Origin: Bradyrhizobiaceae bacterium
GTDB lineage: Bacteria > Bacteroidota > Ignavibacteria > Kapaibacteriales > Kapaibacteriaceae
Assembly: GCA_024103135.1 (NCBI GenBank)
Contig: JAGFIZ010000137.1
Location: 1-64,000 of the forward strand
Length of the DNA: 64,000 nt
Direction: 5' to 3'
Position 1 is the stretch's first letter; every line of letters begins with the position of its first letter. The position numbers were made by a program, and so were the translations under genes. Positions 974 through 11,779 of the stretch are shown here, piece after piece. The notes below the pieces were generated by a model. The model was not told where the DNA came from. It searched no databases and saw nothing but the letters and a program-made list of their open reading frames with translations.

Positions 974-1003
974 CAAAACTACACGCAACTATCTTTGAGT
1001 CAA
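974..1003 (-). promoter_or_regulatory. Promoter of tRNA-Gly
   Basis: On the minus strand TTGACT (1003-998) is followed after 16 nt by TAGTTTTG (981-974), which ends 7 nt before the mature tRNA 5' end. The downstream element fits both a sigma-70 -10 box and the FCB -7 consensus TAnnTTTG. The position relative to a gene with a known 5' end calibrates where transcription starts after this element. Confidence 0.65.
990..997 (+). promoter_or_regulatory. Candidate -7 element (TATCTTTG) of the GH57 gene
   Basis: TATCTTTG matches TAnnTTTG exactly and lies back to back with the tRNA promoter on the other strand. It overlaps the upstream-most TTG of the GH57 frame (995), so a transcript starting just downstream could not use that TTG. 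This favours the internal TTG at 1040 as the start codon. Confidence 0.5.
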
Positions 1004-1039
1004 TTCAATACTTCTCTGGATTATTCGCACCTCAACCCC

Positions 1040-2989
1040 TTGAAACTCTGCTTTGTTTGGCATCAGCATCAACCGGATTATCGTGAAGAGGGACGTTTCT
1101 TCTTGCCGTGGACGAGACTGCATGGCACGAAGGACTATGCCGACCTCGCACTCCTGATTGGTGAGTACCCCCTGAAACACACGATCAACGTCGTCCCGGG
1201 GATGCTCAGCCAGGTGGACGACTACGTGCGCGGCATGACCGATCCCATTCAGGAACTGTCGGTCATCCCACATCGGCAACGCACCAGAGACCACCAACAG
1301 GAACTTGCACGGTGGATCTGCACCCTGCAATTCGACACGATGGTGGCGCCACTAGATCGACTCAAGGCGCTATGGCCAACACTCAAGACTATTGCCGTAA
1401 ATCCCGACGATGGTTGCCTTGGCGAGCAGGAGTGGCTGGACGCAGAGGTACTGTTTCTACTTGCCTGGACGGGGCAGTGTTCACGAAAGCGTCCGGTTGC
1501 TTCACGTCTACTGGAGCAAGGACGCAACTACACTAGACAAGATCTAGCTGACCTCGCACTGGAGCATCAGGATGTTCTGGCTTCGATACCCGCCATCCTC
1601 CGGCGTCTGGAGAACGCTGGCACCATCGAAGTCTCCGTCACACCATACTACCATCCCATCCTGCCACTATTGTGCGACTCGGACGATGCTCGGGAGTGCA
1701 TGCCTCATGCAACACTGCCGAGTCCAGCCTTCACGCAAATGGATGATGCAGCCTGGCACGTATTTGCAGGGATTGCCGACTGGCATCAACGTTCTGGTCG
1801 ACGTCCCCACGGAATGTGGCCTGCCGAAGGCAGCGTGAGCATGAAGGCGCTAACGGTGATGGCAGCAGCTGGGGTTAAGTGGACGGCTACTGATGAAGCA
1901 ATACTGCGTAACTCGTTAGGCGTACGTTGGAGTCCAGAGCGAGCCATGCTTCCATATCGCGTCAATACATCGCAAGGACCGATCACGATGGTATTTCGCG
2001 ATCACGCCTTGAGCGATGCCATTGGCTTTACCTATGCGACGTGGGATGCAAAGGATGCGGTTGATGACTTCTTGCGAAGAATTCATTCCAAGCGACTCCA
2101 GGCATTGAAGGTATTGCCAGAACATCTCCATTCACAGATTGTGCTCCCGATCATCCTGGATGGAGAGAATTGTTGGGAGTTTTATCACCGTAACGGTGAG
2201 GATTTTCTGCGATTATTGTTTGACCACGTTGCGAACGATCCAGATCTTACAACGGCAACGGTTTCGGAAGCAACAGCCAATGCAACGGAGGTCCTTGATC
2301 ACGTTGTTCCAGGATCGTGGATCAATGCCGATTTTGGTATTTGGATTGGCGAACCAGCAAAGAACCTGGCTTGGAAGACACTACGGGAAGCGCGTAAGGC
2401 AGTGGCTGATCACGGGAATGCTCCAGCGGTTCTCTCCATGGTCAAAAGACTGGAAGCAAGCGATTATTTCTGGTGGTATGATAAACGTCATGTAGCCGAA
2501 CATTCGAAACAGTTTGATCGATCATTCAGGGCAGGCCTGGAGGCAGTGTTTGTTGCTACAGGTACAGAGCCCCCTACCAACCTTTCGCAATCTTTTCATG
2601 AGGCACAGGCCATGGATACAGCATTTAAGGTCTTCCCGGTTTCGTTTGCAGAGCAAAGCACCATGCACCGGGCCGATGTGTTGACGAAGGAGATCTGTGT
2701 GGAAACGGACGATGCCTGGCAGCGGTTTACGGTTGATCTACAACAGGTGCCAAGCTTTGCGGAGGACGTGATGCTTCACCTTGCAGATCAAGAGGGTGTT
2801 GAGCGTATTTGCAGAATCATGAATCAAGGCACGATGCTTAGCTCGCCGTACCACGACGAGGGCGTTGAACGGAAGTCGCCAACCAGAGTGTGCATTTACT
2901 TGAAGACCAATGCCGTGTGGGTTGCCTCAGTCGAAGAACAACGGGCTGATGGTACGCTTGCTCGAACGGCACTGACAATCACACCGTGA
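1040..2989 (+). CDS. Glycoside hydrolase family 57 protein (alpha-amylase/glucanotransferase type)
   Basis: A 649-residue protein of the GH57 family (PF03065, COG1449), retaining alpha-glucan hydrolases, branching enzymes or transferases. With the TTG at 1040 it begins MKLCFVWHQHQPDYR, the usual N-terminus in which the family motif HQHQP lies within the first 15 residues. The WPAEGSVS segment near residue 265 fits the nucleophile region (Glu) and ILDGENCWEFY near 375 fits the acid region (Asp). The frame is open back to a TTG at 995, but that codon lies inside a predicted promoter element, and no ATG exists near the 5' end. No signal peptide is seen, so it is probably cytoplasmic and acts on storage glucan. 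It converges on the recX fusion with an 11-nt gap. Confidence 0.85.
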   Translation: MKLCFVWHQHQPDYREEGRFFLPWTRLHGTKDYADLALLIGEYPLKHTINVVPGMLSQVDDYVRGMTDPIQELSVIPHRQRTRDHQQELARWICTLQFDTMVAPLDRLKALWPTLKTIAVNPDDGCLGEQEWLDAEVLFLLAWTGQCSRKRPVASRLLEQGRNYTRQDLADLALEHQDVLASIPAILRRLENAGTIEVSVTPYYHPILPLLCDSDDARECMPHATLPSPAFTQMDDAAWHVFAGIADWHQRSGRRPHGMWPAEGSVSMKALTVMAAAGVKWTATDEAILRNSLGVRWSPERAMLPYRVNTSQGPITMVFRDHALSDAIGFTYATWDAKDAVDDFLRRIHSKRLQALKVLPEHLHSQIVLPIILDGENCWEFYHRNGEDFLRLLFDHVANDPDLTTATVSEATANATEVLDHVVPGSWINADFGIWIGEPAKNLAWKTLREARKAVADHGNAPAVLSMVKRLEASDYFWWYDKRHVAEHSKQFDRSFRAGLEAVFVATGTEPPTNLSQSFHEAQAMDTAFKVFPVSFAEQSTMHRADVLTKEICVETDDAWQRFTVDLQQVPSFAEDVMLHLADQEGVERICRIMNQGTMLSSPYHDEGVERKSPTRVCIYLKTNAVWVASVEEQRADGTLARTALTITP

Positions 2990-3000
2990 CAGTCAACACG

Positions 3001-4305
3001 TTATGAAGCTGATGGTTCAATCACGACCATCTGACTCTTGGGGTGTTCCGACATGGTCGAAAGTAGCGGTAGCAAAGGTGGAAGTTCGTCGTAAACAATC
3101 GCAATACGAGTTGGGCTGACTCCTTGCGAGATGAGCATGTCGCGAATCTTCTGGGTACGTAACACAGGCAGACTCTGCTTGTCCATGCCATGAACATCCC
3201 GGAACCCTCGCAGGGTGATATTGAACGACTGAGTGGACAGTTCACGTCCGATACGTTCTACCATGGTCATCCATCCGGTATTCAGTGAGTCGGTTGATCG
3301 AATGAACAAAACCCGTGCGATCGCAGTATTCCGTGGGTAGAGCCGAACCGTGAGCGTTACGTGTACATTGCTATCAAGATTCCGGATGGAGAGTGTCTGA
3401 TTGTGGGTGAAGTACTCATGTGCAGTGGTTTCGAAGCGTAGACGATGGTTCTCGTGTAGCGTTGTTTGGAATACGCCATTACGAGCAGGACTAATGTTAC
3501 GTCCACCGATTGCCGACGTCAACGAATCCAACGTAATCAGTTCAACCATGGCTGTTGTGACCGGACGCTCCGTGATGGCGTCGATGATCGACAGTGTTAC
3601 GTCTACCGTACGTACCTGTTTGTCTGCCTGTGCTGTTGCTGGACGTGTAAACCCAATACAAAGCAGACAGAGGAGGACGACCAGACCAAGCTGACCCAGG
3701 ACATTTTTGATCACGGGCCATGAATACCCACGCATGTGAAGAAAGCGTTGGAGCTTCTCGCGTCGTTCTTGCTGACTGAATCTGCCAAGCGATGAAAGCT
3801 TCTTCTGCGCCACGGCTACCGCACCAATCAACTGTTCATCATCAGTAACGTAGCGTGCAATTGCAGCATCGACGACGGTGGTAGAGATGCCTTTTTGCGT
3901 AAGCTTCTGTCGGATTAGTCGTGCCGACATCGGCTTCTGCAGCTTGCTTGCCTCGATGAACCGTTCGGCGTATGCATGGTCGTCTAGCTGACCAAATTGC
4001 TTCAACCACTCGATGATCTCATCGGATTCTTCAGTTGTACAGTCGAGCGTCTGTAGCTTGGTCTGCACTTGATGAACGGTTCTAGGCTTGTAGGTAGCAT
4101 ACCGCCAGGCCTTTTGTTTGAGGACCATGCGCCGATCATGCATACGGAGATCGGCTTCCAATGCTTGCGTCATCTCGAGCCCCTTACGGAGCCCGAGTAA
4201 GCCAACAACATCAATCGGACAGGCAGCGAAGAACGCGCCATCCACGAACACCGAGCACCGACTGGTGTTCTTTACGTTTCGAGTAATGGCGGTAATCACC
4301 GGCAT
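3001..4305 (-). CDS. recX: RecX regulator fused in frame to an exported OmpA-like domain
   Basis: One uninterrupted frame of 434 residues joins two unlike parts. Residues about 60-203 are a RecX repeat protein (for example GQLDDHAYAERFIEAS and ARLIRQKLTQKGI), the modulator of RecA filaments, and recA lies 33 nt upstream. At residues 191-228, where RecX should end, the chain runs into a hydrophobic segment GLVVLLCLLCIGF and a cleavage-like site ATAQA. The C-terminal half has a beta-rich region and, from about residue 320, a degenerate OmpA-like domain (GFRDVHGMDKQ, ISQGVSPTRIAIVYDE). An internal GTG at 3714 (MIKNVLGQLG...) or ATG at 3735 could start the exported protein separately. Alternatives are a true fusion, two nested products, or a lost recX stop through an assembly indel. 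The domain calls are firmer than the product boundary. Confidence 0.75.
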   Translation of the reverse strand: MPVITAITRNVKNTSRCSVFVDGAFFAACPIDVVGLLGLRKGLEMTQALEADLRMHDRRMVLKQKAWRYATYKPRTVHQVQTKLQTLDCTTEESDEIIEWLKQFGQLDDHAYAERFIEASKLQKPMSARLIRQKLTQKGISTTVVDAAIARYVTDDEQLIGAVAVAQKKLSSLGRFSQQERREKLQRFLHMRGYSWPVIKNVLGQLGLVVLLCLLCIGFTRPATAQADKQVRTVDVTLSIIDAITERPVTTAMVELITLDSLTSAIGGRNISPARNGVFQTTLHENHRLRFETTAHEYFTHNQTLSIRNLDSNVHVTLTVRLYPRNTAIARVLFIRSTDSLNTGWMTMVERIGRELSTQSFNITLRGFRDVHGMDKQSLPVLRTQKIRDMLISQGVSPTRIAIVYDELPPLLPLLSTMSEHPKSQMVVIEPSAS

Positions 4306-4338
4306 GGCAGACTGCCTCCAGCGGTTAGACTAGACCCA

Positions 4339-5576: not shown

Positions 5577-7217
5577 GTGAAGTACCGACCCTTCCTTGCC
5601 TTGGCGACGCTTGGAACTGCATGTGGTGCAGTGGGGGAGATGCTATGTCCGCCTGCCTTCGTTGAACCTCTTTTCGTACTTGCTTGTGCACTGTGTCTGT
5701 TCTGTGCGATTGCGCTGAGACCCTTCCTGCGGTTGGCATGCTCGATGGCTTTCGGTTTGTGGCTTTGCCTTGAGAGTGGTGGTCTGTCCGGCCGAGAAGC
5801 GTCGATACAACAACGGGCCAGGGTGGAGGGACGTGTGCTGCACGTCGGCACTCGGCTAACATCGGTCTTGGTAGGGGGCGAGGTAGATGGTACAATGGTT
5901 CCCGCCACTTCATGTAGAGTGTTGTTGCATGTTCCTCGAGCGAGCCGACATCGTATCAAGCAGGGACAGTACATCGTTGCCACTTCTCAGGTATGGTTAC
6001 CTACGGAACCCGCATTCGAGGGTGACTTCTCGGAGGCAGCGTGGGCGAGGAACTATCAGGCGACAATGGTTGGGCGGATTCTGTCTCTGTACATTGTTCA
6101 GGATGAGCCGTGGTACCAAACGCTACTAGACTCATCGGCGGAATGGTGCAGGAACATGTTGCGAGCACACACCGATACGGCTACGTCAGGCATCTTATGT
6201 GCCTTGGTTCTAGGTGACGAACAGTTCATCAGCAAGGAGCAGCGGTCATGGTATGTACTGTCTGGTACGGCTCATGTTCTAGCGGTTAGCGGAGCCCACG
6301 TGATGTTGTTGGTGACCGTGCTCATCACGCTTGTTGGCGGTAGTGTTCGGTCGTGGTTGAGTGTAGCGGTGATCCTGTGCATTGCCACATTCTTTGTCGG
6401 CATTACCGGGGCAAGTATCCCGGCAGTACGAGCATTGATTATGTGTGCTCTGGTCCTTGTAGGTAGACTCATGCAGCGAAGTGTTGACAATGCTAACGTC
6501 ATTGGCGCTGTTATCATCATCCACCTCCTGTATGATCCAGCAGCCTTCAACAATGTCGGCTTTGTGCTTAGCAACGCTGCCATGCTGGGTATTGTACTGG
6601 TAACGCCAAAACTCATTCAAGCCTGGTATCGCATTGCCGACGTGCGCACTCGTTTGTACACACGGGCAGGCGAGTTTCTTTCGTTAAATCTTGCCGCTTC
6701 CGCTGCAGTTGGGGTGCCGAGCGCACTGTTCTTTGGCGGCTTTGCTCTATGGTCACCAATCGTCAACATCCTTGTCGTACCCCTAATGAGTATTGCAATG
6801 ATTGCAGGCATGCTTATGCTAAGTGTGGGGAACCTTGGCATCGCCGTCGCCGATGGATGTGGGTTTGCTGCACATGGGTGTATACAACTCAGTGAAGTCA
6901 TCGTCCGTGCTGCATCGGAGAGTACCCCATTGTTCGATCAGCGCCTGGCAGTGGTCGTCGCAGCCGGCTTCCTGTGTACCGTGCTGTGGTTGTGCCTGGC
7001 ACGTACCATTCGTGGATATGCAGTTCGCTGTCTTGGAGGCATACTCCTGACGATGGCATGTGCTATCCAGCTACCATCTCCGCCACAGGGGGTGTTTGTA
7101 AAAACGTCTGTAGGCGGACTTGAGGTTCTCGTTGATGACGGTGTGCGGAGTCGACGTGCTAGCATAGGGACACGATTCGGAATTCCATTCGTACGTTCGC
7201 TTGATGAACGTCACTAA
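5577..7217 (+). CDS. comEC: ComEC/Rec2-type DNA uptake channel, short form without nuclease domain
   Basis: A 546-residue polytopic inner-membrane protein. The N-terminal helices and an OB-like region (DUF4131, residues about 30-160) are followed by the Competence domain, with ALVLGDEQFISKEQR near 205 and the characteristic LAVSGAHV near 235, then about eight membrane helices to residue 500. The family forms the channel that brings single-stranded DNA into the cytoplasm during transformation. The usual C-terminal metallo-beta-lactamase-like domain is missing: the protein ends about 40 residues after the last helix, and the next gene starts within its last codons. The start is a GTG; the ATG 7 nt upstream is out of frame. 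Divergent from recA and translationally coupled to pgeF. Confidence 0.85.
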   Translation: MKYRPFLALATLGTACGAVGEMLCPPAFVEPLFVLACALCLFCAIALRPFLRLACSMAFGLWLCLESGGLSGREASIQQRARVEGRVLHVGTRLTSVLVGGEVDGTMVPATSCRVLLHVPRASRHRIKQGQYIVATSQVWLPTEPAFEGDFSEAAWARNYQATMVGRILSLYIVQDEPWYQTLLDSSAEWCRNMLRAHTDTATSGILCALVLGDEQFISKEQRSWYVLSGTAHVLAVSGAHVMLLVTVLITLVGGSVRSWLSVAVILCIATFFVGITGASIPAVRALIMCALVLVGRLMQRSVDNANVIGAVIIIHLLYDPAAFNNVGFVLSNAAMLGIVLVTPKLIQAWYRIADVRTRLYTRAGEFLSLNLAASAAVGVPSALFFGGFALWSPIVNILVVPLMSIAMIAGMLMLSVGNLGIAVADGCGFAAHGCIQLSEVIVRAASESTPLFDQRLAVVVAAGFLCTVLWLCLARTIRGYAVRCLGGILLTMACAIQLPSPPQGVFVKTSVGGLEVLVDDGVRSRRASIGTRFGIPFVRSLDERH

Positions 7218-7905: not shown

Positions 7906-8040
7906 TGCGACCGTCGTACCATTCACTCCACGGTGTCCAGTACGAACAACACCACCTGCACCAACGTTGATTCTAATCCGTTGTAGCCTTGACAAACAGG
8001 CAAAAGCAACTCGAAAGAGGTTTCGGTCTTTCCTCCCGAC

Positions 8041-8069
8041 AATTAGGTCAACAAAAAGGCCTAATTTTG
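8041..8069 (+). promoter_or_regulatory. kgd promoter with a dyad overlapping the -7 element
   Basis: AATTAGGTC (8041-8049) and GGCCTAATT (8058-8066) form an inverted repeat, 8 of 9 pairs matching, around an A-rich 8-nt centre. Its right arm overlaps TAATTTTG (8062-8069), an exact TAnnTTTG element 29 nt before the kgd ATG. The 193-nt gap between pgeF and kgd holds no other gene. A protein bound to the dyad would cover the core promoter, so repression of kgd is the simplest reading. Confidence 0.5.
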
Positions 8070-8098
8070 ATATTCGTACCACTTGGAATCTTCCGGCT

Positions 8099-11000
8099 AT
8101 GATGTCGATGAATAGCGCATACGTCGATGAAATGTATTTCGATTACTTGCGTGACCCTGACTCCGTTTCACCGGAGTGGCGTTTGTATTTCCAACAGTAC
8201 ACACCAGAAACCACGCAGCAGGGTACATCGCTGCTGCAAGGTTCGACGGTAGGTGGTACCCCACCAGGTTCAACGTCAGCACCATACAGTACGTCAGCAA
8301 GTGTAGGTACCGTTGCATCAACAGGTAATGGTGTAACAAAGCCAGCACCAGCATCTTCGACACCAGCGACAAGCACCATGCCGGCTGCTTCGACTGCATC
8401 GATGCCTCCAGTCTATGAAGGCGATCAACTATTGCCACTAAGCTCAATTGGCGGCAAGATTGCCGAGAACATGGAGCGATCGCTACACGTTCCAACAGCC
8501 ACTAGCGTACGTAGTGTACCAGTTAAGGCACTTGAAGAAAATCGCATTGTCATCAACGAATTCCGAGTCAAGAAACGCCAGCCCAAGCTTTCGTTTACGC
8601 ATATCCTGGCCTGGGCAATTGTCCGCGCCCTTGAGTATGCCCCTAACCTGAACAACACCTATGGTGTGTCGGACGGTGTACCAGTCAAGGTACAGCGGAA
8701 GTCAGTCAACCTAGGTCTTGCCGTTGACGTCACACGCAAAGACGGATCGAGGGTTCTGCTTGTACCGAGTGTGAAGAATGCACAGGACATGAACTTCCGT
8801 GAGTTTGTCGCTGCCTATGATGCAATCATTGCCAAGGCGCGGACAAATAAACTCACGCCGGACGATCTCTCGGGTGCCACGGTCACACTCACCAACCCGG
8901 GAATGATTGGTACCGTAATGAGCATGCCACGACTCATGGAAGGTCAGGGCACGATCATTGCAGCCGGGAACATCGAATACCCAACGGGCTTCCAGGCCAT
9001 GCTGCCGGATGTGCTCCATACATTGGCGGTAAGTAAGGTTGTTACCCTCACTTCGACGTACGACCACCGGATCATCCAGGGAGCCGAAAGTGGGGAGTTC
9101 CTCCAGGCCATGCACCGACTACTCATAGGCGAGGAACGCTTCTACGATCAGATCTATGCAGCATTCGAGATACCCTTCGAGCCGCTGCGATGGTCGGTAG
9201 AGAAGGGGCGTAGTCCGCTACTCCCACAGGACCAGCCAGACATACTGGAAAAAGAAAGTCGAATTGTCCAGCTCATCCATAGTTATAGGGTTCGCGGGCA
9301 CGTACTGGCCGACGTTAACCCATTGGGACTTGAGGCCTACTACTATCCCGAGCTAGATCCAGCTCACTATGGCTTTACCATTTGGGATCTGGACAGAGAA
9401 TTTGATACCGGTGGACTCGGGTCCGTACAGCGTGCCACGTTGCGCGACATCCTGTCCATGCTCAGGGAGACCTATTGCGACAAGATCGGCATTGAATGGA
9501 TGCATATCCAGGAACACGACAAACGCGACTGGATCATGCAGCATGTAGAGAAGAGTCGACTACGGATGCCACTGACGGCAGAACAGAAGGTAGGAACGTT
9601 CCGAACGCTTGTACGTGCAGAAACCCTGGAGTCGTTCCTGCACACGAAGTTCCTTGGCGCCAAGCGATTCTCACTTGAGGGTGGTGAGAGTACCATGGTC
9701 ATTGTCGACGAGGTGCTCAGCAATGCAGCGTCAGCCAACCTCCGTGGGGCCGTCCTCGGTATGGCACACCGCGGTAGGCTCAACGTCCTCGTTAACATGA
9801 TGGGCAAGCCCCCTGAAATGTTATTCAACGAGTTCGAAGGGGCTATCGACCCTGAGTCGTATCAAGGGTCAGGTGACGTGAAGTACCACCTTGGGGCTAA
9901 GGGTTCGTATCACTCGAAGAGCGGACACAGTCTGCCAATGTTCCTGGCACCGAATCCTAGTCACCTTGAAGCCGTGAACCCCGTCGTTGAAGGGATTGCA
10001 CGCGCATTGAATGACGAAGAGGCCGACATTACATATTCCAGCGTGTTGCCAGTTCTCATCCACGGTGATGCTGCCTTCCAAGGTCAGGGTGTAGTGGCAG
10101 AGACACTTAACATGGCTCGCCTTCCAGGCTACCATACTGGTGGCACGGTGCACATCATCATCAACAATCAGATCGGTTTTACCGCATCTCCAGAAGACTC
10201 ACGTTCTACGCCGTATGCATCAGGTGTTGCCAAGATGTTGCAGGTACCAATCCTCCACGTCAATGGTGACGATCCGGAAGCTTGCCGGGCTGCAGCACAG
10301 TTTGCCTTTGCGTATCGACAGCAGTTTACGGATGACGTAGTGATCGACATGTACTGCTATCGCAAGTACGGTCATAACGAGCAAGACGATCCAACGGCGA
10401 CACAACCACTGCTCTACAAGAAGATCAAGCAGATGATTCCTGTGCATACGTTGTACAAGGAGCAGTTGTTGGGCGAGGGGACGCTTTCGAAGGAACAGGC
10501 CGACGCCATCATTGCAGAAGAACACGATGTATTGCAGAAAGCCTTCGATTCCCGTACGAAGGCCAGCGGTACATCGATTTCACCAGCACGATTGTCGTAC
10601 AATCTCTTTGCAGCCGTAAACACTACGGTGTCTGCAGACCTGTTGCAGGAACTTGCAACCGAAATCTGCGAGATCCCTGCTGACTTTAACATTCACGCAA
10701 AGGTTAAGGCAGAGGTCGAAAAGCGTGCTTCGCAGTTTGCTCAAGGAACCATTCAATGGGGAATGGCCGAGGCACTGGCCTTTGCATCATTGCTTAAGGA
10801 AGGGCGCGCTGTTAGAATTACTGGTCAAGACAGTGGACGTGGTACCTTCAACCACCGACAAGCAGTGCAGAGCGATATCGTTAATGAACGTCGGTTGATA
10901 CCAATCAATCGCATGGCAAATGGGAACAAGCGACTGCACATCTACGATAGCTGTCTGAGCGAGTATGCTGTTCTTGGTTTTGAGTATGGTTACAGCACCA

Positions 11001-11779
11001 TTGCAAAGACGGATCTGACAATCTGGGAAGCACAGTTTGGTGACTTCGCCAATGGTGCCCAGATCATGATTGACCAATTCATCTCCAGTGCTGAAGAGAA
11101 ATGGGGCCAGCGTTCAAACCTGACCTTGCTCCTACCGCATGGTTACGACGGACAAGGACCAGAGCACAGCAGTGCTCGTCTTGAGCGCTTTTTACAGCTT
11201 TGTGCTCAAGACAACATGATGGTCTGCAACTTCACGTCGCCCGCCAATTACTTCCACGCGCTACGTCGTCAGGTTTTGGCTGAATGGAGAAAGCCCCTCG
11301 TCGTCATGTCGCCCAAGGGTTACTTGCGAATCTTTACCTCAACGGTTAACGAACTTTCTGCTGGCGGCTACACCGAGATCTTTGATGATGCAACCATCCA
11401 GGATGCCTCTTCGGTAAAGCGGGTAGTCATTACTACCGGCAAGGTTCACTACGAGCTGGCCAAGAAGCGCGAGCAACTAAATCAACAAAACCATGTAGCA
11501 TTGGTACGGTTAGAGCAGATCTATCCTTTTAACGAAGGTCTGATGGCTTCGGTTCTCGGTACGTACGGCAATGCAACTGATGTAGTATGGTGTCAGGAAG
11601 AACCACAGAACATGGGTGCCTGGTTCTTTGTAAACCCACTGATGAGCAAGCTACTCAGGATGGGTCAGCGGCTCCACTACGTTGGAAGGTCTGCTGCTGC
11701 AAGTCCGGCTACGGGCTCAGCTAAGATTCACGAGCGTGAACAAGATGCATTACTAACAAACGCCTTCGCTAACTTTTAG
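8099..11779 (+). CDS. kgd: Fused 2-oxoglutarate dehydrogenase E1/E2 (KGD-type, 2-oxoglutarate decarboxylase/succinyltransferase)
   Basis: A 1226-residue multifunctional enzyme of the TCA cycle. From the N-terminus: an E1 leader helix (YVDEMYFDYLRDPDSVSPEW, residues about 7-26); a Ser/Thr/Pro/Ala-rich linker (40-105); an acyltransferase (E2) catalytic domain (117-370) with the active-site motif DHRIIQG near 321; then full E1o with HRGRLNVLVN near 560, the thiamine-diphosphate motif beginning GDAAFQGQG near 656 and ending NNQIGFT, and a transketolase-like C-terminal half. There is no lipoyl domain, the same layout as mycobacterial KGD/SucA, so a lipoyl carrier from another complex must supply E2 function. 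The frame is open 44 codons upstream, but the ATG at 8099 fits the family N-terminus and lies downstream of the promoter. sucC is 14 kb away on the other strand. Confidence 0.95.
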   Translation: MMSMNSAYVDEMYFDYLRDPDSVSPEWRLYFQQYTPETTQQGTSLLQGSTVGGTPPGSTSAPYSTSASVGTVASTGNGVTKPAPASSTPATSTMPAASTASMPPVYEGDQLLPLSSIGGKIAENMERSLHVPTATSVRSVPVKALEENRIVINEFRVKKRQPKLSFTHILAWAIVRALEYAPNLNNTYGVSDGVPVKVQRKSVNLGLAVDVTRKDGSRVLLVPSVKNAQDMNFREFVAAYDAIIAKARTNKLTPDDLSGATVTLTNPGMIGTVMSMPRLMEGQGTIIAAGNIEYPTGFQAMLPDVLHTLAVSKVVTLTSTYDHRIIQGAESGEFLQAMHRLLIGEERFYDQIYAAFEIPFEPLRWSVEKGRSPLLPQDQPDILEKESRIVQLIHSYRVRGHVLADVNPLGLEAYYYPELDPAHYGFTIWDLDREFDTGGLGSVQRATLRDILSMLRETYCDKIGIEWMHIQEHDKRDWIMQHVEKSRLRMPLTAEQKVGTFRTLVRAETLESFLHTKFLGAKRFSLEGGESTMVIVDEVLSNAASANLRGAVLGMAHRGRLNVLVNMMGKPPEMLFNEFEGAIDPESYQGSGDVKYHLGAKGSYHSKSGHSLPMFLAPNPSHLEAVNPVVEGIARALNDEEADITYSSVLPVLIHGDAAFQGQGVVAETLNMARLPGYHTGGTVHIIINNQIGFTASPEDSRSTPYASGVAKMLQVPILHVNGDDPEACRAAAQFAFAYRQQFTDDVVIDMYCYRKYGHNEQDDPTATQPLLYKKIKQMIPVHTLYKEQLLGEGTLSKEQADAIIAEEHDVLQKAFDSRTKASGTSISPARLSYNLFAAVNTTVSADLLQELATEICEIPADFNIHAKVKAEVEKRASQFAQGTIQWGMAEALAFASLLKEGRAVRITGQDSGRGTFNHRQAVQSDIVNERRLIPINRMANGNKRLHIYDSCLSEYAVLGFEYGYSTIAKTDLTIWEAQFGDFANGAQIMIDQFISSAEEKWGQRSNLTLLLPHGYDGQGPEHSSARLERFLQLCAQDNMMVCNFTSPANYFHALRRQVLAEWRKPLVVMSPKGYLRIFTSTVNELSAGGYTEIFDDATIQDASSVKRVVITTGKVHYELAKKREQLNQQNHVALVRLEQIYPFNEGLMASVLGTYGNATDVVWCQEEPQNMGAWFFVNPLMSKLLRMGQRLHYVGRSAAASPATGSAKIHEREQDALLTNAFANF

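Follow-up and report, generated by a model that had tools for sequence, protein, structure and literature searches.

Organization of the locus

The analysis of the window, by which we mean the whole 64,000-nucleotide stretch of DNA, reveals a single minus-strand frame of 434 codons plus stop at 3001..4305, with its ATG at 4305, its stop at 3001-3003 and zero internal stops. Read in this direction, the frame passes from a complete RecX through a signal-peptide-like segment into an OmpA-like domain, so that the stop-free join proposed in a preliminary description of this DNA is real and lies on the minus strand. A GGAGG ribosome-binding site is recognizable in the sequence at 4315..4319 on the same strand. 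As also described earlier, recA lies directly upstream (5412-4339, minus strand; Pfam RecA 2.5e-135), 33 bases away and probably co-transcribed with the fused gene. A gene for a comEC-like competence channel (5577..7217, plus strand; Pfam Competence 3.3e-45) diverges from recA, and a glycoside hydrolase 57 gene (995..2989, plus strand) converges on the fused gene; both are conserved neighbours. The adjacency of recA and recX is kept through the family loci, and the comEC-like gene is divergent from recA in nearly all loci that are long enough, with no match in G009. The comEC-like gene is followed by a yfiH-like (Cu-oxidase_4) gene, and most of the family has the genes in this order. A search of Rfam found zero RNA elements at the locus, and a brief look at the other frames around the window junction found no obvious programmed-frameshift alternative.

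Domain composition of the predicted protein

The RecX part occupies residues 1-203 (3697..4305, minus strand) and is the only RecX of its genome, in keeping with the one RecX found per genome. Three Pfam domains, each above its Pfam cut-off, cover residues 63-203, namely RecX_HTH1 (PF21982, 4003-4119), RecX_HTH2 (PF02631, 3862-3984) and RecX_HTH3 (PF21981, 3697-3822), all on the minus strand, which confirms the earlier claim of RecX repeats up to about residue 203. An AlphaFold model (pLDDT 86), for which the window protein was combined with relatives, matches RecX structure 3d5l in Foldseek (TMt 0.85, E 3.9e-13) and, in a separate match, a domain of Pal/OmpA/PorE type; with a pTM of 0.45, the relative placement of these parts in the model carries no meaning. 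With known RecX proteins (PDB 3d5l, 3e3v and 3c1d) the window protein shares three HTH repeats, the fold (TMt 0.79-0.88) and the place beside recA, whereas those proteins are soluble and here the last helix continues into a segment like a signal peptide, behind which an exported domain lies. By its domains, modelled fold and recA linkage, this part is a member of the RecX family and is predicted to inhibit or cap RecA filaments. RecX is described in two published accounts as disassembling RecA filaments (PMC9252578, PMC4231760). With one RecX per genome, any RecX function has to come from the fused protein.

It may be asked whether the RecX part acts on RecA at all, or whether the merger was neutral and the N-terminal part now only helps the wall protein to be expressed or targeted. 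Many bacteria can do without RecX, and the linker that follows the RecX part here tolerates change, both of which would fit such a loss. However, the RecX part retains 66-90% identity in the closest pairs, its YKPR motif is nearly invariant, the adjacency to recA is kept, and no other RecX exists in the genome. We therefore regard this explanation as quite improbable.

The exported part begins with a predicted periplasmic beta domain (residues 233-307; 3385..3609, minus strand), delimited by the model and by alignment with the interval between propeller and OmpA domain in relatives; its counterpart is CarboxypepD_reg-like in one relative, and the propeller of the relatives is absent from the window protein. 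It ends with an OmpA-like domain (residues 314-434; 3004..3366, minus strand), which the preliminary description had called degenerate. The sequence match alone is indeed weak, with PF00691 reaching E 0.02 over residues 334-404 and 15.5 bits, below the cut-off of 27.2. The assignment holds by fold and by alignment, as the model resembles the structures of Pal, OprF, MotB and PorE (E about 1e-5 to 1e-4) and this part aligns with relatives whose OmpA domains score 40-47 bits (E 1e-10 to 1e-12).

In Acinetobacter baumannii OmpA, diaminopimelate is bound by Asp271 and Arg286 (PMC5974059). The window protein has likely counterparts in D370 (3196-3198, minus strand; aligned with D652 of the relative L082) and R383 (3157-3159, minus strand; aligned with R667), and is predicted to bind peptidoglycan through them, with a spacing of 13 residues in the window versus 15 in L082 and OmpA. 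In the fused protein L035 of genome G005, a short form without propeller, the Asp of this pair is lost, and the C-terminal domain there may be decaying. The OmpA-like domain of PorE has been solved with a peptidoglycan fragment (PMC7192894), and PorE 6top is among the fold matches. The PD40 beta-propeller, regulatory-like beta domain and OmpA-like domain at the C-terminus of the relatives are shared with the PorE/CHU_0125-type OmpA proteins of Bacteroidota; the proteins described here differ in the N-terminal RecX and in having no TPR domain and no clear lipobox, and the window protein differs further in having no propeller. The T9SS PorE model NF052230 of NCBIfam gave 95 bits for the C-terminal part of a relative and 13.5 for that of the window, against a cut-off of 600.

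Conservation across the family

The preliminary description had suggested searching related genomes for the same junction. Of the 23 family genomes, three were set aside since recX was missing or a contig ended there; in 17 of the remaining 20, the window included, one frame holds both RecX and an exported part of OmpA type, and these 17 span four genera. The junction is thus in frame in 16 genomes besides the window, at 32-37% protein identity to it, which excludes chance or a base error as its source. The idea that a stop was lost or the frame shifted by an error in sequencing or assembly has in its favour only that the window comes from a fragmented assembly (137 contigs); given the same join in 16 independently assembled relatives, its probability is practically nil. 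In 15 of the 17, the fused protein is 695-735 codons long and contains a PD40 propeller region, whereas the window, which has lost it, and G005 carry short forms without it. Of the other assessable genomes, two belonging to genus g4 have a recX with its own stop and a PD40-OmpA gene directly downstream, and G010 has recX alone.

In a phylum sample of 148 genomes, 122 of them with RecX matches, an extended C-terminus among the long frames occurs only in this family. Three other long frames (G185, G248 and G125) owe their length to long stop-free stretches ahead of RecX; there RecX ends the frame, and they were rejected as fusions. A plasmid search gave ordinary RecX matches only, and a literature search for RecX fusions or membrane-anchored RecX returned nothing relevant and no description of such a fusion.

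Origin of the fusion

The six genomes of f5, a second family of the same taxonomic order, carry the same two genes adjacent and in the same sequence: directly behind recX comes a coding stretch for PD40 or PD40-OmpA that is read in a different frame. They differ in that the two genes are unfused, have separate frames and their own starts, and lie downstream of a glutamine synthetase-like gene. In these loci (L103-L108), recX abuts or overlaps the start of the PD40-OmpA gene, and the gene upstream of recX is, by our own reading of the sequence, this glutamine synthetase-like gene and not recA. In L103, the second gene has its ATG in the +1 frame, 8 bases ahead of the recX stop, and encodes a protein with PD40 and OmpA domains above Pfam cut-offs. 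In families f3 and f6, an adjacency of recX and PD40-OmpA was not found among the matches listed. Because in f5 the end of recX overlaps with the beginning of a gene read in a different frame, the fusion probably arose by frame merging; the simplest course is probably that of overlapping neighbours, recX and PD40-OmpA, whose frames then merged in family f1.

A recX stop followed by a separate gene in related genomes was what the preliminary description had thought would speak against a fusion. Such an arrangement does exist, in g4 and in f5, but as a variant or ancestral state beside the conserved fusion, and it therefore does not refute it. In a tree of the PD40-OmpA part, the fused genomes fall on one side of a weakly supported branch (82/41) with the separate genes of g4 as sister; the RecX tree needs three changes, and a single fused clade is not rejected (AU p 0.127). 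The history may thus have been one fusion with later fission or loss, a fusion after g4 split off, or several fusions.

Signal-peptide-like evolution of the junction

The last RecX helix of the model (residues 196-218) continues into a hydrophobic core at residues 206-220 (3646..3690, minus strand), which by sequence and model is a putative internal signal peptide. It is followed at residues 223-227 (3625..3639, minus strand) by a signal peptidase I-like site, ATA/QA or AQA/D (the slash marks the candidate cut; ATA/QA/D when both are written together), and the hydrophobic segment with a signal-like cleavage site noted earlier is thereby located. A small residue followed by Gln occurs at this place in 14 of the 17 fused proteins, so that an internal hydrophobic segment with a conserved signal peptidase I-type site, as a processed polyprotein would have, characterizes these 14; for a stricter motif, 13 were observed versus 3.05 expected by shuffling. 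The motif is absent from G001, G003 and G014. Every fused member has a hydrophobic stretch without charges, about 13-23 residues long.

The linker is the fastest-evolving part of the protein, with 23-72% identity versus 66-90% for RecX in the same close pairs, in which it is far less conserved than both flanks. Its length takes seven values between 30 and 39 residues, all in frame, which by our own count implies at least six length changes, each a multiple of three. Seven in-frame lengths would be unlikely if the frame were not constrained, at roughly (1/3)^6 by simple arithmetic that assumes six independent changes. Taken together, the free sequence, the kept hydrophobic core and the small residue before Gln fit a junction that evolves like a cleavable signal peptide. 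With net charges of +0.5 and +0.7, the two flanks of the core hardly differ, and orientation and cleavage therefore cannot be read from charge.

From the single frame, its conservation, the domain identities, the neighbourhood and the unfused relatives, we infer a course of export, cleavage, membrane retention and action on RecA as follows. One mRNA frame would yield one precursor, whose RecX part would fold in the cytoplasm; the hydrophobic segment would act as a Sec signal peptide in the interior of the chain and carry what follows it into the periplasm. A cut by signal peptidase I at the conserved site between the small residue and Gln would come next, and the periplasmic product, consisting of propeller and OmpA-like domain in most relatives and of the OmpA-like domain alone in the window, would dock on peptidoglycan. 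Unless trimmed, a hydrophobic tail of about 20 residues would stay on RecX, on the cytoplasmic side of the inner membrane; retention of RecX there is expected because of this tail. We consider a polyprotein cut by signal peptidase I, with RecX left at the inner membrane by its hydrophobic tail and the wall-binding part released, moderately probable. Cleavage would restore the unfused state, since the separate genes of g4 and the overlapping genes of f5 show that both proteins work apart. One known precedent is fbcH of Bradyrhizobium, a cytochrome b/c1 polyprotein with an internal signal peptide that is reported to be cut by signal peptidase. There, too, the frame runs on from a membrane-side protein through an internal signal peptide into an exported one, but the N-terminal part is a membrane protein, whereas here it is a cytoplasmic DNA-repair regulator. 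A folded domain of about 200 residues ahead of a signal peptide is unusual and counts against a cut polyprotein, as do the three fused proteins without the motif, the uninformative charge and a phylogeny compatible with one fusion and later loss as well as with several fusions.

The preliminary description had inferred that a true fusion would tether a RecA regulator to the envelope. The fusion is true and conserved; the permanent tether is harder to maintain, as the conserved signal-peptidase-like motif argues for normal cutting. If the segment were instead kept as an uncleaved signal anchor, a covalent link across the inner membrane would connect RecX in the cytoplasm with a domain that binds peptidoglycan, and the regulation of RecA would be fixed to the envelope. 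The uninterrupted frame across the family, uncharged runs of which some could span a membrane, the retention of D370 and R383 in the window, and recA and comEC as constant neighbours count in favour of this. The motif in 14 of 17 proteins, the signal-peptide-like evolution of the linker and the existence of g4 and f5, which manage with no covalent link, speak against it; because relatives have separate genes, such a link is not needed for function. A standing tether from RecX to the wall is thus possible, if doubtful, and we favour the polyprotein cut by signal peptidase.

Internal starts and products

An internal GTG (Val198; 3712..3714, minus strand) had been proposed to provide a second product from the same frame. 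The codon exists and is a possible start, but its conservation as a second start did not hold. Its anti-SD energy is -3.9 versus -9.3 at the recX ATG. In the stretch that separates the third RecX domain from the hydrophobic core, three of the 17 fused genomes (G003, G015 and G019) have no ATG, GTG or TTG, four have only TTG, and in ten a GTG or ATG precedes the core. GTG codons there (14/34 vs 89/278) are about as frequent as Val usage elsewhere in recX predicts, and they are equally common in this stretch of unfused recX (4/7). The start-less genomes and this background frequency rule out a conserved internal start. Because internal starts are not conserved, the full-length precursor is, as the sequences read, the product common to the fused genomes.

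Two products from one frame, the full-length protein and an exported protein begun at an internal GTG, ATG or TTG with a signal peptide of its own, would be helped by the window's additional ATG at 3735 beside its GTG, by the ten genomes with comparable codons and by the strong SD-like sequence that precedes the internal GTG of G004. Against this, the weak SD at 3714 joins the codon counts above, and as a general account we find it unlikely; in single species, the window included, a second product is possible.

Neighbourhood and RecA control

The DNA-binding domain of LexA (PF01726) was not found in any of the 23 family genomes (G000-G022), while controls were positive. RecA in this family may thus be controlled otherwise than by the classic SOS repressor, which makes the location of RecX more relevant. 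RecX of Bacillus subtilis participates in natural transformation (PMC6050356). Since a comEC-like gene diverges from recA in almost every locus long enough to show it, a role of RecX at DNA entry is a reasonable guess and no more. Tentatively, the inner membrane may retain RecX, through an anchor left uncut or through the remaining signal-peptide tail, so that RecA filaments would be controlled at places of contact between DNA and envelope, such as the ComEC channel. RecX has so far been treated as a small soluble protein; if this suggestion is true, a family-wide, frame-constrained fusion would place RecA regulation at the membrane, and at the least the locus would represent a rare bacterial polyprotein linking DNA repair to the envelope.

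Elsewhere in the window, 7967-11779 (plus strand) encodes a 2-oxoglutarate dehydrogenase in which E1 is preceded by a fused E2 acyltransferase domain (2-oxoacid_dh, E1_dh, Transket_pyr and OxoGdeHyase_C), and relatives match across much of its length. This arrangement of E2 ahead of E1 is known from actinobacterial Kgd/OdhA.
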